From: an uncultured Bacteroidales bacterium
GTDB lineage: Bacteria; Bacteroidota; Bacteroidia; Bacteroidales; P3
Assembly (NCBI GenBank): GCA_900316515.1
Contig: ONDE01000009.1
Coordinates: 1 to 64,000, forward strand
DNA: 64,000 nucleotides
Direction of reading: 5' to 3'
Part shown: in pieces, positions 29,764 through 45,273 of the stretch
Numbering within the stretch: position 1 is the first letter of the stretch
Layout: every line of letters begins with the position of its first letter
Program-made: the position numbers and the translations under genes
The notes under the pieces: model-generated
Databases searched by the model: none
Seen by the model: the letters and a program-made list of their open reading frames with translations, nothing else
What the model was told of the DNA's origin: nothing

Positions 29764-31021
29764 GGGTGTTGAGTATGATGTCGGTGCTGCCGAGGTTGCG
29801 GCGCATCAGTTTCAGACAGGCGTCCGAGGCGGCACGGTAGACCTCCTCGTCGGTGAACCATTTCCGTAGTAGCGACACATCGGGGTGCTCGTCGACAGCC
29901 GTGCCGCCTCCTAGTTCGATAATGTCGTGTGCTTCCTGGAACTTGTGCCAGTTGGGACCGAAGACCACGGGCTTGCCGAAGGTTACGGCTTCCAGTATGT
30001 TGTGTATGCCCACCCCGAAGCCCCCGCCGATATACGCCACGTCGGCATAGCGATAGAGCTTCGACAGCAGGCCTATGTTGTCGATGATGAGAGCCTGAGA
30101 TTGCTTGATTGTTTGTGGTGTGCCGTCGGCTCGGCCGACAATGCTTGATTGCTTGAGTTGGGAGTAGCGGACGCTGTCGGGGAACAGTCTCTCTATTTGC
30201 TGCAGGTGCTCTTCGTGTATCTGGTGCGGGGCGATGATGAGCCGTTCCGGGAACCACTCCTTGCCGTCGTTCAGTCGTGCCAGCAGTTGCTCGTCGGGCG
30301 GCCAGGTGCTGCCACAGACCAGCACTTTGCCATTGTATCCTTGCAGGAATTCTTCCACCACCGTGTCCCCCTCGGCGGCGGTGGCTATCTGGTGCACACG
30401 GTCGTAGCGCGTGTCGCCGGCGATGGTGCTATGCTCTATGCCGTGGGCTTGCAGCAGATGCAGGCTCTCCTCGTTTTGCACGAAGAGGTGGCCGAAGCAC
30501 TCTTTCAGCTGCCGTAGGTACCATCTGCCCCACGGCTTGAAGAAATACTGCCCCGGGCGGAATATGGCCGAGAAGATATATGTGGAGATACCCCTGCGGC
30601 GCAACTCGCCGAGGTAGTTGTACCAGAACTCGTACTTGACGAAGAACGTCACCGTGGGCTTCACGGCATCGAGGAAGCGGCGCACGTTGTGCGGCGTGTC
30701 CATTGGCAGGTAGCACACAGCCTGTGCCTTTGCGTAGTTCTTCCGCACCTCGTAGCCCGAGGGCGAGAAGAAGGTTACGAGCACTTGGTGCTCGGGGTGC
30801 CTCTCGATGTAGGCTTCCAGCACAGGCCTCGCCTGCTCGAACTCACCCAGGCTGGCGGCATGGAACCATGCCACTGGACGCTCGTGGTTCAGCTTGGTCA
30901 CCAGTTCGGGCCAGCGCTTCCACCCCTCAACCATCTGGCACGCCTTGGTGTGGCCGAACAGCGCCGCCACACGCACCCCCAGCGTGTAGAACCAAATCCC
31001 AATGGTGTAAATCAGACGCAT
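29753..31021 (-). CDS. waaA: 3-deoxy-D-manno-octulosonic acid transferase (Kdo transferase)
   Basis: The 422-residue GT30 enzyme adds Kdo to lipid A on the inner face of the inner membrane. Family motifs are visible: WFHAASLGEFEQARP near residue 52, TFFSPSGYEV, FVKYEFWYNYLGEL, CGSTWPPDEQ, APHQIHEEHL and YIGGGFGVGIHNILEAVTFGKPVVFGPNW. About 20 residues (KQSSIVGRADGTPQTIKQSQ) before LIIDNIGLL come from a 60-bp palindromic element inserted in frame. Coupled to tamL by overlap. Confidence 0.95.
   Translation of the reverse strand: MRLIYTIGIWFYTLGVRVAALFGHTKACQMVEGWKRWPELVTKLNHERPVAWFHAASLGEFEQARPVLEAYIERHPEHQVLVTFFSPSGYEVRKNYAKAQAVCYLPMDTPHNVRRFLDAVKPTVTFFVKYEFWYNYLGELRRRGISTYIFSAIFRPGQYFFKPWGRWYLRQLKECFGHLFVQNEESLHLLQAHGIEHSTIAGDTRYDRVHQIATAAEGDTVVEEFLQGYNGKVLVCGSTWPPDEQLLARLNDGKEWFPERLIIAPHQIHEEHLQQIERLFPDSVRYSQLKQSSIVGRADGTPQTIKQSQALIIDNIGLLSKLYRYADVAYIGGGFGVGIHNILEAVTFGKPVVFGPNWHKFQEAHDIIELGGGTAVDEHPDVSLLRKWFTDEEVYRAASDACLKLMRRNLGSTDIILNTLEA
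30099..30158. repeat. 60-bp palindromic element, copy in waaA
   Basis: The core GTCGGCTCGGCCGAC (6-bp arms, 3-base loop) is flanked by direct octamers of the gcttgatt type. It is exactly 20 codons and leaves the waaA frame open. It differs at one base from the copy at 44085-44144. Confidence 0.9.
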
Positions 31022-31024
31022 AGC

Positions 31025-31104
31025 TTTTAGTCTTTTCGACTTTTCGACTCTTCGACTTTTCGACTCTTAGACTTTTCGACTTTTAGACTTTTTGACTCTT
31101 AGGC
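31025..31104. repeat. Period-8 tandem repeat (ttttcgac type)
   Basis: About nine units (ttttcgac, tcttcgac, ttttagac, tcttagac) fill the whole gap between an outer-membrane-protein gene and waaA. Confidence 0.85.
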
Positions 31105-31926
31105 TTAATAATAGTAGTAATCATACGTCGTCTTGCCCATCAGCGGGAACATCCAGGTAAGCTTCACGCCGTAGAGCAGGTCGAAGTAGCGGTTGTTGTC
31201 CTTGCCGTTCAGACCCATCTTGTTGTCTATTATATATGGGCGGCTCGACCAACTGAAGCACTGGCTGATGTCGAAGCTGATACGCACGTTGACGTAGGTG
31301 GAGTAGTTGCTCATGAACACGAAGCCTATGCTCTCGGTCAGTATGGCGCCGTTGCGCAGGTGGTCGTACAGCTTGCCGTATTCGTCCACCACCTGTGGCA
31401 CTGGGGCTTCGGTAAACTCCTGGTGGAACACCGTCTGCTGCAAGAACCATCCGCCGCTCACTTTCAGCAGCAGGCCCGAATTGGGGTTGCCTTTCAGCAC
31501 CGGGATTATCTTCCCGCCGCCGATACGGGCTGCCAAGCCGCGGTTGTAGGCGGTGACATATCCGTCTGTGCCGCCCCACGAATAGGCGATGCCGTTGGGC
31601 AGATACACGTTGGGCATACGTTCGCTGCGCTCCTGCAGGTTGTCGCTGTTGAGGCCGAACCACAGGTCGGCGTCTAGGGTCACCAGCCAGTTGCTCTTGT
31701 ATTTGTAGTCGCAGTTCAGTGCGAAGTCCAGCCACGGACTTCCGTACAGGTCTTTCATCCCGCCGCCAAGGGCCCCCTCGCTGGCGCTGCCGCCGCCAGG
31801 CATCAGTATTCCCGCCGAGAAACCTATCACGTGGCACTCCAAGGTGTCGGCCGTGAGCTTCACCTGGGCATTGGAACATAGTGCCAAGCATATCAGTGAT
31901 GCTGTGATTATCAGTCGTTTGCTCAT
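31105..31926 (-). CDS. Hypothetical outer-membrane beta-barrel-like protein
   Basis: The 273-residue protein has a signal peptide (MSKRLIITASLICLALCSNAQ). Alternating strands follow, such as WLVTLDADLWFG, GLLLKVSGGWFLQQ and YVNVRISFDI, ending in an aromatic KTTYDYYYY. This is the look of a small outer-membrane barrel. No family is recognised. It may share transcription with waaA-tamL, with a repeat array in between. It is divergent from proS. Confidence 0.7.
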   Translation of the reverse strand: MSKRLIITASLICLALCSNAQVKLTADTLECHVIGFSAGILMPGGGSASEGALGGGMKDLYGSPWLDFALNCDYKYKSNWLVTLDADLWFGLNSDNLQERSERMPNVYLPNGIAYSWGGTDGYVTAYNRGLAARIGGGKIIPVLKGNPNSGLLLKVSGGWFLQQTVFHQEFTEAPVPQVVDEYGKLYDHLRNGAILTESIGFVFMSNYSTYVNVRISFDISQCFSWSSRPYIIDNKMGLNGKDNNRYFDLLYGVKLTWMFPLMGKTTYDYYYY

Positions 31927-31941
31927 TTCGTGTCTAAAATC

Positions 31942-31958
31942 ATTTCACCAAGTGAAAT
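31942..31958. promoter_or_regulatory. Inverted repeat in the proS promoter region
   Basis: ATTTCAC-CAA-GTGAAAT is a perfect 7-bp inverted repeat at the place of the -33 element of proS and 16 bases upstream of the divergent gene. It is a candidate operator. Confidence 0.45.
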
Positions 31959-31966
31959 ATTTTGTG

Positions 31967-31974
31967 TACTTTTG
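31967..31974 (+). promoter_or_regulatory. -7 box of the proS promoter
   Basis: TACTTTTG followed by CACTCC, about 55 bases upstream of the proS ATG. Confidence 0.6.
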
Positions 31975-32029
31975 CACTCCATTTTTAACGAAACTTATTA
32001 TTAATTATTGTATTCAATAGTCAAAAAAT

Positions 32030-33502
32030 ATGGCAAAAGACTTTCCCAAACGCAGTGAGAACTACTCCGAATGGTACAACGAGCTCGTCGTACGTGCCGA
32101 CCTCGCCGAACAGAGCGCCGTCCGCGGTTGCATGGTGATAAAACCCTATGGCTATGCCATCTGGGAGAAGATGCACGACCAGCTCGACCGCATGTTCAAA
32201 GAGACCGGCCACCAGAACGCCTACTTCCCCCTCTTCATCCCCAAGAGCTTCCTCTCTCGTGAGGCCGAGCATGTCGAAGGCTTCGCCAAGGAGTGCGCCG
32301 TGGTCACCCACCACCGCCTCATGAACGACCCCAACGGCAACGGCGTCGTCGTCGACCCCGCCGCCAAGCTCGAAGAAGAACTCATCGTGCGTCCCACCTC
32401 CGAGACCATCATCTGGAGCACCTACAAGAACTGGATCAAGTCCTACCGCGACCTGCCCATCCTCTGCAACCAGTGGGCCAATGTCGTCCGCTGGGAGATG
32501 CGCACCCGCATGTTCCTCCGCACCGCCGAGTTCCTCTGGCAGGAAGGCCACACCGCCCACGCCACCCGCGAGGAGGCCGAGGCCGAGACCCGTAAGATGC
32601 TCGAGGTCTACGCCGAGTTCGCCGAGAAGTATATGGCCATGCCCGTCCTCAAAGGCCACAAGAGCCCCAACGAGCGCTTCGCCGGTGCCCTCGACACCCT
32701 CTGCATCGAGGCTATGATGCAGGACGGCAAGGCCCTGCAGGCAGGCACCTCCCACTTCCTGGGCCAGAACTTCGCCAAAGCCTTCGAGGTACAGTTCCTC
32801 AACAAGCAGAACCAGCTCGAATACGTCTGGGCCACCTCCTGGGGCGTCAGCACCCGTCTCATGGGCGCCCTCATCATGACCCACTCCGACGACAATGGCC
32901 TCGTCCTGCCGCCGCACCTCGCACCCATCCACGTCGCCATCGTCCCCATCGCCAAGAGCGACGAGCAGATGGCGCAGATCGACTCGCATATCGAGCCCAT
33001 CATCCGCGCCCTCGAAGCCAAAGGTCTGGTGGTGAAGTACGACAACCGTCCCGAGTACAAGCCCGGCTGGAAGTTCAACGAGTACGAGTTCAAGGGCGTC
33101 CCCGTGCGCCTCGCCATCGGTCCCCGCGACCTTGAGAACGGCACCTGCGAGGTCTGCCGCCGCGACACCCTCGAGAAGATCACCATGCCCATCGAAGGCA
33201 TCGCCGACCATGTCGCCGACCTCATGGAGCAGATCCAGCAGAACCTCTTCAAGAAAGCCGCCGACTTCCGTGCCAGCATGACCCGCCGTGTCGACACCTG
33301 GGACGACTTCAAGACCGAGATCGAGAAGAACGGCTTCCTGCTCTGCCACTGGGACGGCACCGTCGAGACCGAGGAGCGCATCAAGGAGGAGACCAAGGCC
33401 ACCATCCGCTGCATCCCCTTCGACGCCCCCGAGGAAGAAGGCAAGTGCATCTACAGCGGCAAGCCCTCGCACCGCCGCGTCGTCTTCGCCCGCAGCTACT
33501 AA
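32030..33502 (+). CDS. proS: Prolyl-tRNA synthetase (short, archaeal/eukaryote-like type)
   Basis: The 490-residue class II synthetase charges tRNA-Pro. It shows the type without the inserted editing domain: motif 2 [27 protein letters not shown], motif 3 [17 protein letters not shown], the anticodon-binding domain after residue 300, and the C-terminal [18 protein letters not shown] zinc-like domain ending in Tyr. The codon bias is strongly GC-rich at third positions, as in a highly expressed gene. Its last 38 bases are duplicated downstream of the ATPase gene at 35173. Confidence 0.97.
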
Positions 33503-33612
33503 TTGCAGTAGTTAAGGAGACATGAGTTAAGTAGATACTATTTAAAGTGGAGTCTTTCCGGGCTCCACTTTTTCTTTTGTCGCATTCGGAAAATAATTCG
33601 TATCTTTGCACC
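33465..33612 (+). repeat. 148-bp direct repeat, copy 1 (proS 3' end, terminator, promoter)
   Basis: This copy spans the last codons of proS, a repeat array, the AAAGTGGAG/CTCCACTTT terminator and a TATCTTTGCACC promoter box. Copy 2 at 35173-35321 matches it with about eight differences, all in the downstream two thirds. Confidence 0.9.
33544..33576 (+). terminator. proS terminator
   Basis: AAAGTGGAG and CTCCACTTT arms surround a 12-base loop, then TTTCTTTT. Confidence 0.85.
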
Positions 33613-33712
33613 GTGAAAAGAACAGTGGGAATGCGTTAATGTGTGAATGCGTTAGTGTCTTCCCGAAACACTACAGAGGGGTCGCCGGAAGGCTACAGGA
33701 GAATAGGACTTG

Positions 33713-34912
33713 TTAGTAGGTTAATCCGAATAACCAAAGTGGCAGTTTTTTGCCGTAGGAGTATTCAATTCCGTCGCAGGCGAGATAGGCATTATCGCGA
33801 CCAATAATCTGCCCTCCGTCCTTGGAACTGCCACCTACCTCCACAACAATCTTCCCGTCAATGATAAAATCAGCGGGTTTTGTGTACTCCACACCATGCT
33901 TATATGCCATCTGGTTGCAGAAGAAAGACTCTCTGACGGTTCCTTCGTTGGCTTGGCCAAGATTGAGGATATAACATAGGTTGGGGTTCTCCATCAGAAT
34001 TTTGTCCGGTTTTTGCATACGCTTTACCGATGTGGCATCGGAATAGAGCAAACGAATGAGACGTGCATCATGTAGATATTGCAGATAGGAGGTAAGACTC
34101 ACGCGACTCAACTCCGTCATCTTAGAAAGTTTGCTTACGTCCACCAGCATTGGAACTTCTGTAGCCAGTACCGCCAAAAGAGACTTCAGTTTCCGAATAT
34201 TACCCACATCCACGCCTCGCTGTTGCGGTAGTTCTATGCCAAGAATCATGTCCACAACATTCTCTACCCTTGTAGTGTATTGGTTTGGATTCTCCTTGCG
34301 GAATGGGTAGTAGCCCGACCGCAGATAGTCTCCGAAATACTCCAAAGGTCTGCATTTGGCATTGACATTATCGCAGATGTCGTCGGCATTGTGAACGATA
34401 TCGTCAAGCGAACATTTCGGCAAGTCGATTTTATGATAGAACCGCATATACTCAGCAAACGAGAGACCCTGCATCTCGTAACTTACACAACGTCGTGACA
34501 AGTCGGCTTCTGCATTTAGAATCTGTAACAGGGAGGAACCGGTAAATACAATCTTAAGGGTTGGGTAGAGGTCATAGATATTTTTTACATATTGGCTCCA
34601 ATGAGGATACCTGTGCACTTCATCCAGCAGAAGACACTCTCCCCCTGAAGTGTAGAAAGACTGGACGGTGTCCATTAGGTCGTTGCGTGTAAAATACGCA
34701 CTGTCGAGGTTAAGGTATAACGCTTTTTTTGTGTTAGTTCCATAGTGCAATTTGATATGCTGAAGCAAAAGTGTCGTTTTCCCAACACCTCTGGCACCAC
34801 GAATACCGATAAGTTGGGTGTTGCCCCAGTCGATATCATTCATCACTGAACGTACAAAATTTGTTGTACTATTCTGAATCAGTTGTCGTTGTAATGTAAA
34901 AAGTGTTTCCAT
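33713..34912 (-). CDS. AAA ATPase with C-terminal DUF4143
   Basis: The 399-residue protein has a P-loop GIRGARGVGKTTLLL near residue 40, Walker B CLLLDEVHRYPHW and sensor IVFTGSSLLQI, then a helical middle part and a restriction-fold-like DUF4143 end (NPNLCYILNLGQANEGTVRESFFCNQM, then DFIIDGKIVVEVGG). The family is common in Bacteroidota and its function is unsettled. I start at METLFTLQRQ because the earlier in-frame start lies upstream of the promoter. The base composition is poorer in GC than neighbouring genes. It is bracketed by the duplicated proS tail, so it is probably a later arrival. Confidence 0.88.
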   Translation of the reverse strand: METLFTLQRQLIQNSTTNFVRSVMNDIDWGNTQLIGIRGARGVGKTTLLLQHIKLHYGTNTKKALYLNLDSAYFTRNDLMDTVQSFYTSGGECLLLDEVHRYPHWSQYVKNIYDLYPTLKIVFTGSSLLQILNAEADLSRRCVSYEMQGLSFAEYMRFYHKIDLPKCSLDDIVHNADDICDNVNAKCRPLEYFGDYLRSGYYPFRKENPNQYTTRVENVVDMILGIELPQQRGVDVGNIRKLKSLLAVLATEVPMLVDVSKLSKMTELSRVSLTSYLQYLHDARLIRLLYSDATSVKRMQKPDKILMENPNLCYILNLGQANEGTVRESFFCNQMAYKHGVEYTKPADFIIDGKIVVEVGGSSKDGGQIIGRDNAYLACDGIEYSYGKKLPLWLFGLTY

Positions 34913-34928
34913 ATATCCATTGTTTTGT

Positions 34929-34998
34929 GATGCAAAGATACACTTTTTGTTTAATATGCTAAACAAAAATTAAAAAATATTGTTTAACACATTAAACA
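34929..34998 (-). promoter_or_regulatory. ATPase promoter with two palindromic operator-like sites
   Basis: TATCTTTGCA lies at 34931-34940 on the minus strand. Two 18-bp palindromes of the form TGTTTA-N6-TAAACA occupy 34948-34965 and 34981-34998, with centres 33 bp apart, about three helical turns. The first covers the -33 region. This suggests repression by a dimeric regulator. Confidence 0.55.
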
Positions 34999-35070
34999 CA
35001 AATGGTGAAAAAGCAATATTCATTGACTTTCCCTGTGACTTTCCCTGAAATTGGTTGACAGATTTGGGAT

Positions 35071-35088
35071 GGTTGTCGGCCGAGCCGA
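35071..35088. repeat. Isolated core of the palindromic element
   Basis: Eighteen bases containing GTCGGCCGAGCCGAC are identical to the core found in waaA and mtaB, but without the octamer flanks. The rest of 34999-35172 holds a few TGGTTTACA repeats and no gene. Confidence 0.7.
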
Positions 35089-35251
35089 CGCCACAGCAAA
35101 ACTGAATTGGTTTACATTGTTTCGTCCATATCCCTAATCTGGTTTACACCTTCACGGTTTTGGTTTACACTTCCTCGCACCGCCGCGTCGTCTTCGCCCG
35201 CAGCTACTAATTGCAGTAGTTAAGGAGACAGTAGTTAAGTAGATACTATTT

Positions 35252-35284
35252 AAAGTGGAGTCTTTCCGGGCTCCACTTTTTTCT
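35252..35284 (+). terminator. Duplicate of the proS terminator
   Basis: The same hairpin arms as at 33544, with one more T in the tail. It would shield the array from upstream transcripts. Confidence 0.8.
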
Positions 35285-35318
35285 TTTGCCCGATTTGGAA
35301 AATAATTTGTATCTTTGC
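35284..35318 (+). promoter_or_regulatory. Promoter upstream of the CRISPR array
   Basis: TTTTG is followed after 21 bases by TATCTTTG (35311-35318 region), about 60 bases before the first repeat and pointing into the array. Confidence 0.6.
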
Positions 35319-35377
35319 ACCATGAAATCGGAATGACAAAAAACAAATAAAACAGAAAAGAAACAGAGAGATAGAAT

Positions 35378-36123
35378 AAGGATAATTGCTTGAAAAGTAA
35401 ACATTGATAATAGATCTTTGACATCCGCAGGGCAAGACCGACATCGGTCCTCATGGGTTGTGAATTGCTTGAAAAGTAAACATTGATAATAGATCTTTGA
35501 CATCTTAAGACACTCAACATAAGACTGAACTGGGGTTGTGAATTGCTTGAAAAGTAAACATTGATAATAGATCTTTGACATCCCGGACTTTGTACGTATT
35601 TTTCAATTACTGTTGTGAATTGCTTGAAAAGTAAACATTGATAATAGATCTTTGACATCGCTTCAGCAGAAATTTGAACAGAGGAGTAGTTGTGAATTGC
35701 TTGAAAAGTAAACATTGATAATAGATCTTTGACATCGGCGACACGTTGGGATGAAGCCTACGAGGGTTGTGAATTGCTTGAAAAGTAAACATTGATAATA
35801 GATCTTTGACATCGCGGTATTTTCCATCCTCTTTGACTACTAGTTGTGAATTGCTTGAAAAGTAAACATTGATAATAGATCTTTGACATCATAAGACGAC
35901 CTATTATAGAGGCGTAGCGGTTGTGAATTGCTTGAAAAGTAAACATTGATAATAGATCTTTGACATCGATGGGCACGGCCGCCTATGCCATCCTCGAGTT
36001 GTGAATTGCTTGAAAAGTAAACATTGATAATAGATCTTTGACATCCACGTTTGAACATTGTCGAAATCAACGTAAGTTGTGAATTGCTTGAAAAGTAAAC
36101 ATTGATAATAGATCTTTGACATC
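35378..36123 (+). CRISPR. Type II-C CRISPR array, 10 repeats and 9 spacers
   Basis: The 48-bp repeat begins GTTGTGAATTGCTTGAAAAG and ends GATCTTTGACATC. Full copies start at 35457, 35535, 35612, 35689, 35766, 35843, 35920, 35998 and 36076. The copy at 35378 is identical except for its first 6 or so bases. The spacers are 29-31 bp and all different. The tracrRNA anti-repeat pairs with the 5' part of the repeat, so crRNAs read on the plus strand. The 3' half of each repeat resembles a promoter (TTG, 20 bases, GATCTTTG). Open frames across the array are artefacts. Confidence 0.98.
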
Positions 36124-36174
36124 ACGATGTCAATAATCGGGTGATATACAATGTACTATTAGTTGTCAAAGACT

Positions 36175-36207
36175 AAAAAAATCCCGCCATTATAGGCGGG
36201 ATTTTTT
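36175..36207. terminator. Symmetric terminator between array and cas2
   Basis: AAAAAATCCCGCC and GGCGGGATTTTTT surround a short AT loop. It can end both the plus-strand array transcripts and the minus-strand cas operon. Confidence 0.9.
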
Positions 36208-36232
36208 GTTTGTTGTAATTGTTTTTTCAATT

Positions 36233-37472
<1,240 letters not shown>

Positions 37473-37480
37473 AAGAAATA

Positions 37481-40400
37481 TTAATACTCTCCTACATGAA
37501 CTATTCGGCCGATATGGTCAATGCGTACTTTCACAATGCCTTTAAGGTTGTTGAGCGATGTTATCCTCTTCCAGGTTATGTTTTGAAGGGCTTTTTTGTC
37601 ATCTATGGTTGTCTCAAGGTGGTGACGGAACCAATAGTCTTTGCTCGACAGCTTTTGTACGCGGAATAGGTTGGGGCTAATCTGGCTGTAGTTGCGTTCG
37701 TCGGTAAGGTCTATTTCTGTGGGGTCGAAGCCCTGTGTAGGATTGGGAAAAACGAAGTATTCGTTTTGCTTCATGGTGAATAGGAACTGCCAACCTTTGT
37801 CTTTGTTATATTCTTTGTCGACAACGGGCATGTCGAGTTGTGTTACGCGTGCCACAGCTTCGTAGAAGGAAACTATATGCTCTTGCAGGTTGCCGTCGGC
37901 ATCGCGGAAGATGGCTACATGATGGTTGTTTTTGAGGTTGACATAATCGGCAGGTTGCAGATTGCCATCTGCGTCGAGTATCGGATGGCCCTCTTTATCG
38001 TGCTTGTGGTGCAATGGTTCACCTGGAATGCTCTCGACGATCGTAACTCGCTTGATGTCGATGCCACGCTCACGATTGAGCCATATCGGGTTGCTGTCGA
38101 GATTGGAGAATGCTTTGCCTGCATCGCCGCCATATTCGGCCAAGCGTGCTTGCAACAGGCGACGTACCCCATTGTCAAGCACTTTGTCTACGTTGAGGTC
38201 TTTGTCTACGCTTTTGCGGATTGTGAATTGTTTGTCATACTGGCGTATGAGTACTTTTTCCGGCACTTGGACGGTATGTTCGGCGTCAAGCCAGATGGGG
38301 CTCTTGGCGGGGCTGTTTTTGCCAGTGAAAGCTTTCTTGGTGTCGCCGTCAAACTCATCGAGGCGTTGTTGCAGCGCCTTGCGGTAGGTGGTATTCTGCA
38401 CTTGTGCTATTAGTTTGGCTGTCATTTTGCTGCCGACAGGCACCTCACATGTGGACGGTATGAGAGCAGAGCCGTATACTGTTTCCTTGTGCAGTTGCCC
38501 GCGAGGGGTGAGCTGTGTCTTCTGTTTATTGCCACCTTTGGTTTTGGTGATGTTGGTGTTGCGTGTTGCCACTTTGTTTTTTGCCTTGATAGATACCAGT
38601 ATCATCTCGAGGTGTCGTTTGGCTTCTGCACGGAAGTTGCCAGCAATAGGCATGACGAAACGTAGGTGGCCGTTTGCATCGCGCTCCAGGAAGTGGCGCT
38701 CAATAGAACGAATGTCATCAATATCGCGGGCATTAAGATGATTGAGGTAGTTGATGTACGCCGGGCGGGTAAAGGCGATGGTGAGTGCATCCATAGCGTG
38801 ATGGCGGTGGTCGTTGCGCTTTGTCCAGTCTTCGATTCGGCGTATCTGCTGCCCGTCGCGTCCTGTTATGACAGAGGTGAGTCCTTGTTGTTGGTATTTG
38901 CTCCAGTTGAGTTCCTGCATGATGTCGACCAGTTGCCAGTCTTGTCGCAGGCGGTCGGTGACGCTGCCGGTGGTGGCGGTTACGATGCGAGCAATGTCGT
39001 GCAACATTTCCTGGGCTTTGCGTGAGATATACTGAGTGTTGCGTAGGTCGCGCTCTATGAAGTCTTCAGGTATCTCGGCTTCAGTCATCTTGAGTTTACG
39101 CGCTTTGACAGGCGAGATGGCACCATTGCTAAGAAGGCTGTCGATGCGGCTTTTGTAATCAGAAACGCCGGAGTCGCCATATTTGTTTTTGACATAGTCG
39201 ATGGCGGTGGCGTTGCTCTTTTCTATATTTATATCTCGGTATTCGAGAGTCTTGTTTGAGAAAGAGTCGTCGAAGAGGCGTGACTGCGGTATGATATGCT
39301 CGATGTCTATATCCTTGCTGAAAAGCTTTTCTTTAGGAATGTATTGGTTGGAGTATAATGTTTTATAGCCGTTTGGTGCCAGTTCTTGATAAAGTCGGTA
39401 TCGGATGATGTCGTTGCGGCTGACATGCGTAAGGCCAAAGTCTTTCTGCAGGATGGTGCGGTATTGTTCTGTTTCGCGTGTGGTGCGGTTGATGGCTTCA
39501 GTCATAGCCTTGCGCTGTGCGGCGTTCCTCTTCAACTCGCGTGCAAGTTCGATGCGCACTTCGTCAGGACGACCGTATGCGTCAATGATTCCGTTGACTA
39601 CGTTAACCATCTGGTTTAATATTTTCTCCACCACTGGGTTGCGAAGACTGTTTTTGGCCAGCGGCTCAAGATGCTCTTTGAGTGGACGGCTGTCGTTCTC
39701 TTCGCGGGTAAGAGACTGCTCGGAATGCCTATAGCCAGCCAGAGCGCATGCCTCGCTGTATTCGTGTCCTGCGGCCATGTAGGGCAGAATGCGTTTGATG
39801 GCTTTTGTGGAAATGCTGCAATAGTCATCCTCGAAATGCAGTTTGGCATATAGCCTGGCATATTCATATGGCAAGTGAGTCAGCTCCATAATGTGTTTGG
39901 TCAGCTTCTCGTCGCCTGTTGTTGTGTTGTCGCCTTCGAAAGAATAAAGAAGGTGCCAGAGTCTCATCTGCGGCTCGTCTTCTATTTTTTCGGCGTCGGT
40001 GTTGAGGTTGAGCCAGTCGGTGGCATATCCGAGACCATGGAATACTGACTTGATAATGTCGAGTATTTGGTCGGCAGGCATTTTGGAGAAGTCGTATTCC
40101 CCGTGTCCGCTTAAAGAGATAATCTCTTGTGTGGCCGAGAGGATATTGGCCATTGTGCGGTCGCCATCGAGCGATGCAAAATTGAGGTCAAGTCCGCGGG
40201 TTTTTGTGAAGAGTGCTTTTAGTGCGTCTTTCTTGCTGAGTTTCTCCTTAAGGAGCAGCTCTGTGCAGAGTGTTGCTTTCTGTTCGTCATTAAGCACATA
40301 TTCTTCGTCGTCTTTTATTATAGTTACATTGTTTAGTGTTTGCCATATTCTGAAGCGTTGGAAAAGCGGCGATGATTTAGGGCATACTTTGCGATGTTCA

Positions 40401-41536
40401 AACGGGCAGTTGGCGACAAGCCATTTTTGCGACTTCAGCCTGCGTTGGTAGAAGATGATTATGTCGCGTATTTCGTGCTTTAGCTCCGGTGTCAGTTCTG
40501 TATGGTATCGAGCCTGCGTTTCCCATAGTTGTTCAAATTCATCCAAGTAATCTTGGCGGTAGAAGGGTTTGTTCTTGAGGCTTGCGTTGGGGTTGCTGTC
40601 CAGTTGCTGCATGAGATACTGCCCAACTGTTTGGTGGTTGATATATAGTATTTTGCTACGGTCGCTGATGGCACCGAGGTAGCCGCTACTGCTGTTTATC
40701 TGTCCGTTGACCTCGCAGATTACTGTTGCGAGCTCCTCTGGTGTCAGAGCCCTGTTGAGTGCATCGTTACGGAGAGAAAACAGTTGCTTGTTTCTCTCGA
40801 ACCGATTTCCCTTGATGTCGGCAGTATAAATGCCGTATGTCTTCGAAAAGACAACGCTGGTTCCTTTCTTGCTTTGCCCTTCTATGGAATTTCGGAAATC
40901 TGTCGATAGTATTGTGCTATGATACTGATGCTGGTATGCCCATATTTTGTCAAGTTCGGCCAGCAGGTCGGAACGATAGAAGTCAGGAATGTAGTGCTTG
41001 CCTTCGCTTATCAACAGGTGCCCATATTGGCCTGGAGTCATGCCCGAATCGTAGAGTTGGCGAGCCATATCGAGATTGTTGATAAAGCTACCATCCTCGT
41101 TATTGTTCATCTTTCGGCTGCTCTTATAGCCTCTCTTCTTGTTAAGCATGAGCAATACACGTGCGAACTGCTCCAGGGTAATCTCTTGTGAGGCGGCTTT
41201 GGCTCGCAGACGATAGGTCTCAAAAGTACTATTGTTGCCATTCTCTGATAGAATAGTATTGTCAGATATCCATTGGTTTTCTTTGAGGAGGGATATAAGG
41301 TTTTCGCGTCGCAGTTTGTATCGTTGCAGATTGCGTCGCATACTCCTTTTTAGGGTTCTGTCGGCTGTAGTGGTGATGGGAGCACCTTTCTCAAAGTTGG
41401 TTTGCTCGTCGGTGGTTAGCGGATTAACGCGAACACCAAGACGTACTATAGAAGAGTCTTTTGGCATATCAGCTTCGTTGACAACCGCCCAACCAATACT
41501 GGTGGTACCAAGGTCTAATCCTAATACTTTAGCCAT
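37481..41536 (-). CDS. cas9: CRISPR RNA-guided endonuclease Cas9 (subtype II-C)
   Basis: The 1351-residue nuclease cuts DNA matched by a crRNA:tracrRNA pair. All catalytic parts are present: RuvC-I VLGLDLGTTSIGWAV (Asp8), an arginine-rich bridge helix RRNLQRYKLRRENL near residue 65, RuvC-II IELARELK (Glu663), HNH IDIEHIIPQS (His747) with NKTLEYRDIN, and RuvC-III HRHHAMDAL (His913, Asp916). I start at MAKVLGLDLG; the upstream in-frame TTG (41554) falls at the likely transcription start. The size is large for II-C but usual for Bacteroidota. The promoter is divergent from the tracrRNA promoter. Confidence 0.98.
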   Translation of the reverse strand: MAKVLGLDLGTTSIGWAVVNEADMPKDSSIVRLGVRVNPLTTDEQTNFEKGAPITTTADRTLKRSMRRNLQRYKLRRENLISLLKENQWISDNTILSENGNNSTFETYRLRAKAASQEITLEQFARVLLMLNKKRGYKSSRKMNNNEDGSFINNLDMARQLYDSGMTPGQYGHLLISEGKHYIPDFYRSDLLAELDKIWAYQHQYHSTILSTDFRNSIEGQSKKGTSVVFSKTYGIYTADIKGNRFERNKQLFSLRNDALNRALTPEELATVICEVNGQINSSSGYLGAISDRSKILYINHQTVGQYLMQQLDSNPNASLKNKPFYRQDYLDEFEQLWETQARYHTELTPELKHEIRDIIIFYQRRLKSQKWLVANCPFEHRKVCPKSSPLFQRFRIWQTLNNVTIIKDDEEYVLNDEQKATLCTELLLKEKLSKKDALKALFTKTRGLDLNFASLDGDRTMANILSATQEIISLSGHGEYDFSKMPADQILDIIKSVFHGLGYATDWLNLNTDAEKIEDEPQMRLWHLLYSFEGDNTTTGDEKLTKHIMELTHLPYEYARLYAKLHFEDDYCSISTKAIKRILPYMAAGHEYSEACALAGYRHSEQSLTREENDSRPLKEHLEPLAKNSLRNPVVEKILNQMVNVVNGIIDAYGRPDEVRIELARELKRNAAQRKAMTEAINRTTRETEQYRTILQKDFGLTHVSRNDIIRYRLYQELAPNGYKTLYSNQYIPKEKLFSKDIDIEHIIPQSRLFDDSFSNKTLEYRDINIEKSNATAIDYVKNKYGDSGVSDYKSRIDSLLSNGAISPVKARKLKMTEAEIPEDFIERDLRNTQYISRKAQEMLHDIARIVTATTGSVTDRLRQDWQLVDIMQELNWSKYQQQGLTSVITGRDGQQIRRIEDWTKRNDHRHHAMDALTIAFTRPAYINYLNHLNARDIDDIRSIERHFLERDANGHLRFVMPIAGNFRAEAKRHLEMILVSIKAKNKVATRNTNITKTKGGNKQKTQLTPRGQLHKETVYGSALIPSTCEVPVGSKMTAKLIAQVQNTTYRKALQQRLDEFDGDTKKAFTGKNSPAKSPIWLDAEHTVQVPEKVLIRQYDKQFTIRKSVDKDLNVDKVLDNGVRRLLQARLAEYGGDAGKAFSNLDSNPIWLNRERGIDIKRVTIVESIPGEPLHHKHDKEGHPILDADGNLQPADYVNLKNNHHVAIFRDADGNLQEHIVSFYEAVARVTQLDMPVVDKEYNKDKGWQFLFTMKQNEYFVFPNPTQGFDPTEIDLTDERNYSQISPNLFRVQKLSSKDYWFRHHLETTIDDKKALQNITWKRITSLNNLKGIVKVRIDHIGRIVHVGEY

Positions 41537-41557
41537 AGTTATAGATGTTTTCAATGG

Positions 41558-41627
41558 TGCAAAGATACATGTTTTTCAGCGAATAGAAAAAAATATTTTG
41601 CTATATTGTGGAAAAGTTGTATTTTTG
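41558..41627. promoter_or_regulatory. Divergent promoters of cas9 (minus) and tracrRNA (plus)
   Basis: The cas9 -7 box TATCTTTG is at 41560-41567 on the minus strand. On the plus strand TTTG (41597-41600), 19 bases and TATTTTTG (41620-41627) form a full consensus promoter for the tracrRNA. Confidence 0.8.
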
Positions 41628-41632
41628 CATCA

Positions 41633-41718
41633 CTTTTTAAGCAATTCACAATAAGGATTATTCCGTTGTGAAAACATTTCGGAGGGCGGGAGCAGCAATG
41701 CTCCCGTCGTCTGTTTTG
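41633..41718 (+). ncRNA. tracrRNA
   Basis: The anti-repeat CTTTTTAAGCAATTCACAA (41633-41651) pairs with the first 19 bases of the CRISPR repeat, with one G-U pair. A small GGA/TCC hairpin follows (aaggattattccg), then a terminator stem CGGGAGCA-GCAA-TGCTCCCG (41687-41706) and a T-rich tail. The start is set about 6 bases after the -7 box, and the 3' end is estimated. Confidence 0.9.
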
Positions 41719-41832
41719 ATTGAAAAGAATGCTTGGGAGGTTTGGCGGTAATATTAACCCATTTTTCCTTAATATTTCAATCCAGATGGTTTGGCCATAG
41801 GGTAAACACCCATATAGGTGGCCTATTTCGAC

Positions 41833-41896
41833 AGTATTTCTTCAGTATTTCTTCAGTGTTTCTTCAGTGGATGACTGAAGAAACACTGAAGAAATA
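41833..41896. repeat. Perfect 23-bp inverted repeat built from 11-bp units
   Basis: Arms 41846-41868 and 41874-41896 are exact complements around GGATG. The left side is three direct tatttcttcag/tgtttcttcag units. The flanking stretches 41719-41832 and 41897-41979 hold no gene or recognised site. Confidence 0.9.
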
Positions 41897-41979
41897 GCGG
41901 GAAGTGATTGAAAATCAGACGGTGTTTTCACGAGGTCTGGTTGCACCCTGGTCGCTCTGGTTGCGCAGGTTGCGCGGGG

Positions 41980-42969
41980 TTACAGCTTGACCAGGCGGTA
42001 GCGGGTGGTGCCGGTGCCGAGACGCTCGGCATGGGTGATGATGTGGGTGCCGTGTTTCTTGTTGACGCGCTCCTGCAGGGGGGCGGCATCGTCGCCCTCG
42101 GTGTCGCTGTGGGTGAAGACGAGGTCGAGACAGGCCTTGTCGAGGGCCACGGGGTCGGTGGAGGCCAGGATGCCCACGTCTTTCATCTTGGGCGAGGCAG
42201 GGCGGCCCATGCAGTCGCAGTCGACCGAGAGGTTGTTCATGACATTGATGTAGACGATGTTGCGTCCCTCTTGTTTGAAGTAGCGCTGCACGGCGTCGGC
42301 AGCGGTGGCCATGCATTCGAGGAAGGCGTCCTGCTCGGCGGGTTTCCAGCGGCTGTCGGTCGCGCCGGCGGAATGGATGTAGAACTTGCCGCTGCGCGAG
42401 GCAACGCCGATGGAGAGGTTCTTCAGCGCGCCGCCGAAGCCGCCCATGGCGTGGCCTTTGAAGTGCGAGAGATCGATCATGAAGTCGTAGTTGGCCAGGT
42501 GGCTGCCCACCTCGTCGTAATTGATATAGGTGGTGTCCTGCACCGGCAGGCGCATGGTGCCTTCGGAGTCCATGATGTCCACGTTGCCGTAGCCGCGCTT
42601 GGCGATGGCCTTGCTGTGGCTCTTGGTCTTGGCACGGCGGGAGAGTGGATAGGCGGTGTTGCACTCGACAAGGGTGCCGTCGACGCGCTGCACCAGGGGC
42701 ATGATGAGGGCGGGGTCGAGGTGGTTGCTGTGGCTCGACTCGCCGGTGCTTATCTTCACGGCCACGCGGCCTGAGGCTTCGACGCCAAGGGCTTCGTAGA
42801 TGCGCACCAGGGCCTCGGGGCTGATTTCGTCGGTGAAATAGACCACCGCGCCGTCGTCGCCCATGGTGGGCACGTAGGGGACGGGGTTGGCGCCCTTTTG
42901 GGCGCAGGCTGTCAAAAGGCTGATGGTGAGCGCTATGGCTGCTGTGAAATGTGGAAAGTTGTGTTTCAT
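41980..42969 (-). CDS. DUF362 domain lipoprotein
   Basis: The 329-residue protein has a lipoprotein signal (LTISLLTAC, Cys at about 22) and a DUF362 body: VAVKISTGESSHSNHLDPALI, FMIDLSHFKGHAMGGFGGALKNLSIGVASRSGK and DVGILASTDPVALDKACLD. DUF362 proteins often carry ferredoxin clusters; none is seen here. I start at MKHNFPHFT, as the earlier start lies upstream of a TACTTTTG box at 42978-42985. That leaves almost no leader. Function unknown. Confidence 0.88.
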   Translation of the reverse strand: MKHNFPHFTAAIALTISLLTACAQKGANPVPYVPTMGDDGAVVYFTDEISPEALVRIYEALGVEASGRVAVKISTGESSHSNHLDPALIMPLVQRVDGTLVECNTAYPLSRRAKTKSHSKAIAKRGYGNVDIMDSEGTMRLPVQDTTYINYDEVGSHLANYDFMIDLSHFKGHAMGGFGGALKNLSIGVASRSGKFYIHSAGATDSRWKPAEQDAFLECMATAADAVQRYFKQEGRNIVYINVMNNLSVDCDCMGRPASPKMKDVGILASTDPVALDKACLDLVFTHSDTEGDDAAPLQERVNKKHGTHIITHAERLGTGTTRYRLVKL

Positions 42970-42977
42970 AATGGCGG

Positions 42978-42985
42978 CAAAAGTA
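42978..42985 (-). promoter_or_regulatory. -7 box of the DUF362 gene promoter
   Basis: TACTTTTG on the minus strand, only 9 bases upstream of the chosen ATG, which predicts a very short or absent leader. Confidence 0.5.
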
Positions 42986-43082
42986 CGAATTAATTTCCTT
43001 TTTTCTTTTTTCACGAACAATAATATTTCTAAATATTCGTTAAAAGGTCGATGGAAAATGTTTAACCAAAAACTATAAAACT

Positions 43083-43814
43083 ATGAAGATTACAAACAAA
43101 ATGCTTGCTGAGTGCTTCGGCACCTTCGTTCTCGTGCTGGGCGGCTGCGGTACCGCACTGTTCGGCCATGTGGGCTTCCTCGGCGTTGCCATTGCCTTCG
43201 GCCTCACGGTGATCGCCATGGCCTATGGCATCGGCCACGTGAGCGGCGCCCATCTGAACCCCGCCGTGTCGTTCGGCGTGTGGGTCAACGGCCGCATGAG
43301 CTTGAAAGACATGCTCCTCTACTGGGTGAGCCAGATTGTCGGCGCCATCATCGCCGGCGCTGTCCTTTTCGGCATCTATAAAGCCGCCGGTCTCGGCGCC
43401 ACGGGTGTCTTCGCCGCCAACGGCTATGGCGAGGCCTTCCAGGCCGCTACCGGCAATCCTGACTACCTCAACGTCTCGATGTGGGGCGCCTTCGCCGTCG
43501 AAGCTGTCCTGACCTTCATCTTCCTGATGGTGATCCTCGGCGCCACCGACGAGCGCAGCAACACCAAGGCCGCCGGCCTTGCCATCGGCCTCACGTTGAC
43601 GCTCATCCACCTCGTCAGCATCCCGCTGACCAACACCAGTGTCAACCCCGCCCGCTCCATCAGCCAGGCCATCTTCAGCGACTGCGCCACCTGGAGCGCC
43701 TGCAGCCAGCTGTGGCTCTTCATCGTCGCCCCGCTTGTGGGTGCCGCTGTGGCCGGTCTGTTCTACAAGTGCGTCTGCGGCGACTGCTGCTGCAAGAAGT
43801 GCAAGAAAGACTGA
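43083..43814 (+). CDS. aqpZ: Aquaporin Z-like water channel with Cys-rich tail
   Basis: The 243-residue six-helix channel has the two pore motifs HLNPAV (NPA 59-61) and SVNPARS (188-191). His176 and Arg191 are placed as His174 and Arg189 of E. coli AqpZ, so a water-selective filter is likely. The C-terminus CVCGDCCCKKCKKD has six cysteines in 14 residues, which I do not know from other aquaporins. It is followed by a repeat array and a terminator. Confidence 0.93.
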   Translation: MKITNKMLAECFGTFVLVLGGCGTALFGHVGFLGVAIAFGLTVIAMAYGIGHVSGAHLNPAVSFGVWVNGRMSLKDMLLYWVSQIVGAIIAGAVLFGIYKAAGLGATGVFAANGYGEAFQAATGNPDYLNVSMWGAFAVEAVLTFIFLMVILGATDERSNTKAAGLAIGLTLTLIHLVSIPLTNTSVNPARSISQAIFSDCATWSACSQLWLFIVAPLVGAAVAGLFYKCVCGDCCCKKCKKD

Positions 43815-43816
43815 CG

Positions 43817-43874
43817 GAAGTGAAGAGTGAAGAGTGAAAAGTGAAAAGTGAAGAATGAAGAGTGAAGAGTGAAA
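43817..43874. repeat. Degenerate 7-bp tandem repeat (agagtga type)
   Basis: About eight units of agagtga/aaagtga/agaatga follow the aquaporin stop. Confidence 0.85.
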
Positions 43875-43909
43875 GAGGCCGTCTCGATACGAGGCGGCCT
43901 CTTTAGTTT
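43872..43909 (+). terminator. Hairpin terminator after the aquaporin gene
   Basis: AAAGAGGCCG and CGGCCTCTTT arms with an inner CTCG/CGAG stem, then AGTTTTT. It works in either direction. Confidence 0.85.
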
Positions 43910-43961
43910 TTGGTTTTTACTTTTTACTTTTTAGTTTTTAGTTTTTAGTTTTTAGTTTACA
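43905..43961. repeat. Degenerate 7-bp tandem repeat (agttttt type)
   Basis: About seven units agttttt/ggttttt/acttttt run to the stop codon of mtaB. Confidence 0.85.
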
Positions 43962-45273
43962 CGTCGGCTGTCTCTTTGACGATGTTGTCGGGGGTGAGGG
44001 TTATCTCTTCGATGGTGTTGACGAGGGTTTCGTCGTAGGGACGGCAGAGACGTATGTAGTTGTCGGTCCAGCCTTGCATGGTTTGATTGCTTGATTGCTT
44101 GTGGTGTGCCGTCGGCTCGGCCGACAATGCTTGATTGCTTGAGTGGGGTGTGGATTCCCAGAGGACGGGGCGGGTCTTGCCGAGCTGGGAGGATATGAAT
44201 TCTTTATGTTTGCGCTCGCTGAGCTCGAGGAGGCGGGCGGTGTGCTCGCGGCGCACGGCGACGGGGATCTTCTCGCCCAGACGCAATGCTGCGGTGCCGG
44301 GGCGGTCGCTGTAGGTGAAGACGTGGAGGTAGGAGATGGGCAGCGAGTCGATGAAGGAGAGCACCTTGGCGAATTCATCCTCGTTCTCGCCGTTGAAGCC
44401 TGCCATGACGTCGGCGGCGATGCAGGCGTCGGGCATGACGGACTTGATGCGCTCGAGTTTGGCGCGGTAGAGGGCGGTGTCGTAGCGGCGGTGCATGAGC
44501 TGCAGCACATGGTCGGAGCCAGCCTGCAGGGGTATGTGGAAGTGGGGCAGGAAGGCGCGGCTGTGGGCCACGAAGTCTATTATCTCGTCGGTGAGCAGGT
44601 TGGGTTCGATGCTGGAGATGCGGTAGCGCAGGATGCCCTCGACCTGGTCGAGACCGCGCAGCAGGTCGAGGAACGACTCGCCGTGGTGCTGGCCGAAGGT
44701 GCCTGTGTTGACGCCGGTGAGTATCACCTCCTTGGAACCCGAGTCGGCGATGCGGCGGGCGGCGCAGAGGGTCTCCTCGATGGTGGCGGAACGCGAACGG
44801 CCGCGGGCGAAGGGGATGGCGCAGTAGGTGCAGAAGTAGTCGCAGCCGTCCTGTATCTTGAAGAAGGTGCGGGTGCGGTCGCCGGAGGAGGAGTATTGTA
44901 AGTTGAAAGTTGGAGGTTGAACGTTGAAATCGGGGCGGAAGCCGTTGCGGACAATGTCGGGGAGCAGGTGCTTGCGGTCGTTGCCGAGGACGAGGGTGAC
45001 GCCGGGGATGGCTTCGATTTCCTTGGCGGCGACTTGTGCGAAGCAGCCTATGACAGCTATCTGTGCATCGGGGTTCTTGCGGTGGGCCTGGTGGATGGCC
45101 GTGCGGCATTTTTTCTCGGCGACGGCGGTGACGGTGCAGGTGTTGACGATGTAGAGGTCGGCCTGCTGGTTCCAGTCGACAATGGTATTGCCTTCTGCGG
45201 CGAGACGCCGCAGAAGGTCGGAGGTTTCAGCGAAGTTGAGTTTGCACCCGAGGGTGTGGGCGGCGATGGTCAT
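43957..45273 (-). CDS. mtaB: tRNA t6A37 methylthiotransferase MtaB
   Basis: The 438-residue radical SAM enzyme converts t6A37 to ms2t6A37 in tRNA. The N-terminal UPF0004 domain has HTLGCKLNFAET (first Cys), VNTCTVT and VIGCFAQ. The radical SAM motif is CDYFCTYCAIPFARGRSRS, and a TRAM-like end has WTDNYIRLCRP. Two stretches look inserted: FNVQPPTFNLQ (period-7 repeat) and SNQALSAEPTAHHKQSSNQT (60-bp palindromic element) just before the TRAM part. It starts 3 bases after the MORN-repeat gene. tsaE, needed for the t6A substrate, is also in this window. Confidence 0.95.
   Translation of the reverse strand: MTIAAHTLGCKLNFAETSDLLRRLAAEGNTIVDWNQQADLYIVNTCTVTAVAEKKCRTAIHQAHRKNPDAQIAVIGCFAQVAAKEIEAIPGVTLVLGNDRKHLLPDIVRNGFRPDFNVQPPTFNLQYSSSGDRTRTFFKIQDGCDYFCTYCAIPFARGRSRSATIEETLCAARRIADSGSKEVILTGVNTGTFGQHHGESFLDLLRGLDQVEGILRYRISSIEPNLLTDEIIDFVAHSRAFLPHFHIPLQAGSDHVLQLMHRRYDTALYRAKLERIKSVMPDACIAADVMAGFNGENEDEFAKVLSFIDSLPISYLHVFTYSDRPGTAALRLGEKIPVAVRREHTARLLELSERKHKEFISSQLGKTRPVLWESTPHSSNQALSAEPTAHHKQSSNQTMQGWTDNYIRLCRPYDETLVNTIEEITLTPDNIVKETADV
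44085..44144. repeat. 60-bp palindromic element, copy in mtaB
   Basis: It matches 59 of 60 bases with the waaA copy but is translated in a different register. The core is GTCGGCTCGGCCGAC with gattgctt octamers on both sides. Confidence 0.92.
44897..44930. repeat. In-frame period-7 repeat in mtaB
   Basis: Units aagttga, aagttgg, aggttga, acgttga encode FNVQPPTFNLQ on the minus strand. Confidence 0.75.

Follow-up and report, generated by a model that had tools for sequence, protein, structure and literature searches.

Type II-C CRISPR arrays of Neisseria and Campylobacter carry an extended -10 element at the end of the 36-bp repeat, and promoters embedded in these repeats were reportedly established by Zhang and by Dugar in 2013 (cited in PMC12080349). 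For the type II-C arrays of Flavobacterium columnare and F. psychrophilum, the accessible portions of two accounts propose a repeat-encoded promoter in which TTG forms the -33 element (PMC8092290, PMC10309648), and for CRISPR1 of Riemerella anatipestifer the authors state, in the portion of their text available to us, that they saw no potential repeat promoters, and propose a leader promoter instead (PMC5006608). In Bacteroides, promoters of the main sigma factor have TAnnTTTG at -7 and TTTG at about -33; that study, as far as its accessible text goes, found no CRISPR array in its species (PMC7366714). A literature search that was thin on subscription journals returned no report of TAnnTTTG inside Bacteroidota type II-C repeats, nor any public 5'-end data for Bacteroides strains that have type II-C arrays.

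The window, a 64,000-nucleotide stretch of contig ONDE01000009.1 from an uncultured Bacteroidales bacterium, contains a type II-C array of ten 48-bp repeats and nine spacers of about 29-31 bp on the + strand (35378..36123). Beyond it, on the - strand, lie cas2 (36233..36565; TIGR01573), type II cas1 (36567..37472; TIGR03639) and cas9, encoding 1357 amino acids (37481..41554; TIGR01865); the open reading frames between 36.2 and 41.6 kb include no further cas gene, as in type II-C operons. Beside cas9 is a + strand tracrRNA gene, recognised by pairing and sequence, with approximate ends (41631..41725), a terminator-like hairpin near its end and a -7 box, TATTTTTG (41620..41627, + strand), with TTG 19 bases upstream. 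Its anti-repeat (41631-41651) can pair with bases 1-20 of the repeat at 20/20 positions when G-U is allowed, again as in type II-C, and because this pairing involves the 5' end of the repeat, the reading direction of the array is the + strand, towards cas2. An Rfam scan of positions 30000-45000 of the window gave no match.

A sequence-only reading had proposed that every repeat holds its own Bacteroides-type promoter, formed by a TTG and, 20 bases on, the box GATCTTTG (35413..35420 on the + strand in repeat 1, and at the same place in the other nine). The observation itself is accurate. TTG-N20-GATCTTTG is present in 10/10 repeats and nowhere else in the window on either strand; the box agrees with TAnnTTTG at five of six fixed positions and ends 5 bases before each spacer. 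The spacing of 19 with which it had been compared is indeed that of the tracrRNA promoter TATTTTTG and of TACTTTTG, a promoter-like site that has TTG 19 bases upstream and ends 66 nt before tRNA-Asn, the only tRNA gene in the window. Correct as it is, the match is nevertheless not significant alone, because shuffled and random sequences reach it often: a match of at least five in six appears in 57% of 5000 dinucleotide shuffles of the window repeat, a five-in-six match with TTG 17-22 bases upstream in 6.5% of shuffles (15.4% with the first 16 bases kept), and a matrix built from 106 tracrRNA promoters gives 5.2% of random genomic 48-mers a score at least equal to that of the window repeat. The single mismatch of GATCTTTG is at T1, which is T in 95/95 tabulated tracrRNA boxes, with few exceptions in the wider set of 106 (column counts use 95, as 11 of the 106 had sites too near an edge and were dropped).

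We compared the array with relatives from 80 cas1 loci of named genomes and further loci from the family and phylum, with 40 loci of other cas1 types as controls. A script detected 177 type II-C arrays, whose 125 distinct repeats form 60 clusters, 49 of them of 44-48 bp; 20 of loci L141-L280, including the 10-base L240, yielded no array. The conserved 5' end served to orient the repeats, and anti-repeats with the typical CACAATAAGG ending, judged by eye, agreed with this orientation; elsewhere the script chose false sites, which were not used. Counts leave out duplicate arrays and those whose first repeat lies beside N or near a contig end (less than 90 nt for the oldest-repeat count, less than 150 nt for the upstream count).

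Across these relatives, a weighted 22.58 of the 49 long-repeat clusters contain exact TAnnTTTG, compared with 1.78 in shuffles and 0 on the reverse strand; for the looser TAnnTT[TAC][GAT] the weighted count is 36.25 of 49 (shuffles, 13.51; reverse strand, 4.63). Among non-type-II repeats of the phylum, the exact box was found in 1/20 clusters, counting either strand. It starts at repeat position 23-27 in most repeats, with the TTG of the opening GTTG about 19 bases upstream, as in tracrRNA promoters, and in most it ends 13-17 bases before the spacer; box and TTG together hold this fixed place in other Bacteroidota type II-C repeats beyond chance. Where near-matches deviate, 16 of 23 mismatches are at positions 7 and 8, which also vary in tracrRNA promoters, while T1, A2, T5 and T6 are invariant there (95/95). 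By eye, the tracrRNA genes inspected carry a box of the same sense at the place that matches the repeat box. Conservation of the box for pairing with tracrRNA was considered; in these genes the pairing segment, also judged by eye, stops before the box.

A promoter per repeat suited to the Bacteroidota sigma factor finds support as a principle, for most related type II-C repeats and on the crRNA strand only, but not for the window box as it had been described. Aligning Bacteroidota repeats, as the earlier reading had suggested, reveals TAnnTTTG conserved in much of the phylum but not where the window has GATCTTTG, and the accompanying idea that the long repeat is a pairing segment followed by a promoter fits the boxed repeats and is at most putative for the window repeat. 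That GATCTTTG is the box of the wider family can be dismissed, as it has another position and is not kept in close relatives.

Named loci with boxed or near-boxed repeats include those of Parabacteroides massiliensis (L084), Phocaeicola coprophilus (L095) and Dysgonomonas alginatilytica (L102). Some groups depart from the common arrangement. Among 36-bp repeats (such as those of L202, L214, L225, L196 and L234), 6 of 11 clusters end in [TG]AnnTT, versus 2 of 49 clusters of long repeats, and all 11 have TTG 19 bases upstream of that place; the box of short repeats possibly straddles the repeat end. Six loci from Bacteroidota outside Bacteroidales (L181, L197, L199, L203, L211, L217) have [GT]TTCTTTGA without TA at the box position. 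A second, small group (L054, L057, L061, L067, L083) has an eroded box, and the three of its members with 150 nt upstream (L057, L067, L083) each have TAnnTTTG ahead of the array. One contig titled Eubacteriales (L069) has a Bacteroidales-type cas1 and a boxed repeat, probably a binning error.

The window falls in a supported set of 31 rows of the Cas1 tree (136 rows, one per distinct protein, in which support is weak for 46 of 133 inner branches and some long branches come together), and 30 of these 31 have no box. At the homologous place (start 23-27) the window repeat reads AAACATTG and many of its sisters GAACATTG, not TAnnTTTG; the one candidate elsewhere in the window repeat is GATCTTTG at 36-43, a chance-level match at five of six positions. 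Of the 29 distinct repeats of this clade, no more than 3 exceed the 5th percentile of tracrRNA promoter scores, compared with 70 of 76 other long repeats and 22% of random genomic 48-mers; the window repeat has the highest box score of its clade (6.8). A changed sigma consensus can be rejected as the reason, since 20 of 22 clade tracrRNA matches have exact TAnnTTTG, and with these promoters still canonical the consensus is unchanged in the clade. As judged by its repeats, the clade of the window array is one that has lost the family-wide box.

Promoters upstream of the arrays show the converse distribution. In the 150 nt ahead of the first repeat, TAnnTTTG is present in 14/26 clade arrays, 4/44 boxed arrays and 0/20 short-repeat arrays (Fisher p 0.0001), and without tracrRNA promoters the clade count is 9/26 (binomial p 0.0025 against 12.1%), although these tests overstate independence because the clade loci are related. 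Chance occurrence is 7.5% in random 150-mers and 12.1% in AT-rich ones; other long arrays without a box have TAnnTTTG within 150 nt upstream in 4/14 cases, and 12/26 clade arrays have none within that distance. A same-strand tracrRNA gene stands upstream of the array, no more than 1.5 kb away, in 13 of the 21 clade repeat types with a located tracrRNA, versus 1 of 41 boxed types. In twelve loci of the window clade (L037, L039, L040, L041, L042, L146, L150, L156, L159, L163, L166, L168) a same-strand tracrRNA gene is directly upstream of the array and not beside cas9. Since the upstream tracrRNA genes seem to finish with terminators, it is a guess that transcription reads through from them into the array.

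Upstream of the window array, a canonical -7 box, TATCTTTG (35310..35317, + strand), is an exact match to TAnnTTTG and lies 68 bases before repeat 1. TTG lies 21 bases upstream of it, and by sequence and spacing a TTTG (35285..35288, + strand) is its possible -33 element. Most likely, a longer precursor would start from TATCTTTG, the proposed array promoter, and would then be cut with the help of the tracrRNA. A 155-bp stretch is duplicated here at 94% identity (33465-33618 and 35173-35327), flanking an ATPase-like gene (33713-34966), and carries the TATCTTTG promoter along with the 3' end and the terminator of the preceding synthetase gene; because TATCTTTG lies within it, the upstream promoter of the array may derive from the duplication.

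The oldest repeat of each array offers a further view of the box. Of the 105 distinct arrays that have 90 nt or more upstream, 51 have an intact first repeat and 54 a partial one, and in 48 of the 54 partial cases, long and short repeats taken together, what is preserved starts at position 3-25 and extends to the repeat end. Six partial first repeats with boundaries at 28-48 are presumed to be non-repeat sequence that passed the 50% identity threshold; should they be genuine, they would weigh against the pattern. In long repeats the boundary lies at or before the usual box start, and in the other Bacteroidota type II-C arrays the oldest repeat keeps the part with the box while the pairing half decays. 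The window agrees, with 5 of the first 6 bases of its oldest repeat changed (35378..35383, + strand) and none elsewhere. A mere breakpoint effect working from the outside in would predict remnants of the 3' end only; this explanation was considered, and such remnants were seen in 0/105 arrays, with a chance rate of 3/1723 random places. Selection for a promoter ahead of the first spacer would leave such a pattern. A concentration of changes in the first 15 nt of type II-C first repeats is already reported in the accessible part of a published study (PMC12080349); the link between this decay and the Bacteroidota box comes from the present analysis.

In the clade without the box, 11 of 12 partial oldest repeats retain their 3' half, with boundaries no later than position 19, and one has its boundary at 28. 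Either a promoter that TAnnTTTG does not describe is still present in these repeats, or the 3' half has another job. This preservation would also suit a box retained for a reason other than transcription, whether recognition by Cas1-Cas2, pairing or DNA shape: Cas1-Cas2 also read repeats, and one clade lives without the box. We consider such a reason very improbable, however, given that the tolerated changes and TTG spacing are those of tracrRNA promoters, that the box keeps to a single strand and, bar 1/20 clusters, does not occur in non-type-II repeats, that the oldest repeat is not the integration site, and that box loss accompanies upstream promoters. Within-array transcripts are also reported for F. 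columnare, from 8 reads, in the available portion of that study (PMC8092290).

The same preservation bears on whether GATCTTTG is, after all, a working embedded promoter, with CTTG 20 bases upstream and transcripts starting at the first spacer bases. In that case the box would have been rebuilt near the repeat end after the ancestral one, at about 22-31, had eroded. Its presence in 10/10 repeats and the best box score of the clade are consistent with this, and so is the fact that in L207 and L237, which have unrelated 36-bp repeats, it likewise ends 5 bases short of the spacer. The 12 window-like repeats end in a common CTTTGACAT[CT], and CTTTGACAT is kept in 12/12, which also fits a working box; the rest of the match is less constant. 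T1 is lost. In the nearest relatives the place of GATCTTTG is occupied by GCTCTTTG or GTTCTTTG, and box position 2 is A in 2/12 (the window and L150), C in 8/12 and T in 2/12, so that A2 is lost in 10/12. CTTG is absent from L042, L146, L163 and L166, and the repeats of the sister group end in forms like GATAAACACC, with no TTTG at that place. Such a match also arises easily by chance, and the array has its canonical promoter upstream. As a family promoter, moreover, GATCTTTG is misplaced, sitting at 36-43 rather than 23-27 in a clade without the family box. We regard a working GATCTTTG as rather unlikely, and give it that much weight because the oldest repeats of the clade keep a 3' half that an outside promoter would not need. 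The principle was probably right for much of the phylum and the box probably the wrong one: from the sequence comparisons, GATCTTTG is probably not the working box of the window array and is at best a weak, recent substitute.

Taken together, the comparisons make it somewhat probable that most Bacteroidota type II-C repeats embed a main-sigma promoter, and that the window clade lost the box and has its array driven from upstream. In a boxed repeat, the opening GTTG would have two roles, as the -33 element and as the start of the segment paired with tracrRNA; TAnnTTTG would follow about 19 bases on, directly after the pairing segment, and each repeat would thereby start a transcript for the spacer behind it. 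We infer transcription from boxed repeats from the observed conservation, strand, geometry and oldest-repeat preservation of the box. More tentatively, and with rather less confidence than doubt, we suggest that Bacteroidota evolved per-repeat promoters to their own sigma consensus and that one genus-level lineage, that of the window, then gave them up for a leader promoter or for a tracrRNA gene moved to the front of the array.

Should the boxed repeats act as promoters, these gut and rumen bacteria would transcribe every spacer independently, and old and new spacers would consequently be expressed alike. The length and sequence of the repeat would then reflect three jobs, namely tracrRNA pairing, transcription start and serving Cas1-Cas2. 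If the lineage switch is true, it would be a natural change from many promoters per array to one, and the clade without the box would be a natural experiment on the gains and losses of returning to a single promoter.

Among described systems, CRISPR1 of R. anatipestifer is likewise a Bacteroidota type II-C array and differs in having no repeat promoter according to its authors, in the accessible part of their report (PMC5006608). The Flavobacterium accounts, in the portions available, name only TTG within the repeat and name TAnnTTTG for cas9 alone (PMC8092290, PMC10309648). Promoters of the Bacteroides main sigma factor have the same boxes but are known, from the available text, upstream of genes (PMC7366714). 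With the arrays of Neisseria and Campylobacter, the boxed Bacteroidota arrays would share one promoter per repeat read towards the cas genes and the addition of spacers at the 3' end, and they share an oldest repeat that decays mainly in its first 15 nt. They differ from them in that the Bacteroidota box is TAnnTTTG, usually 13-17 bases before the spacer, in repeats of 46-48 bp.
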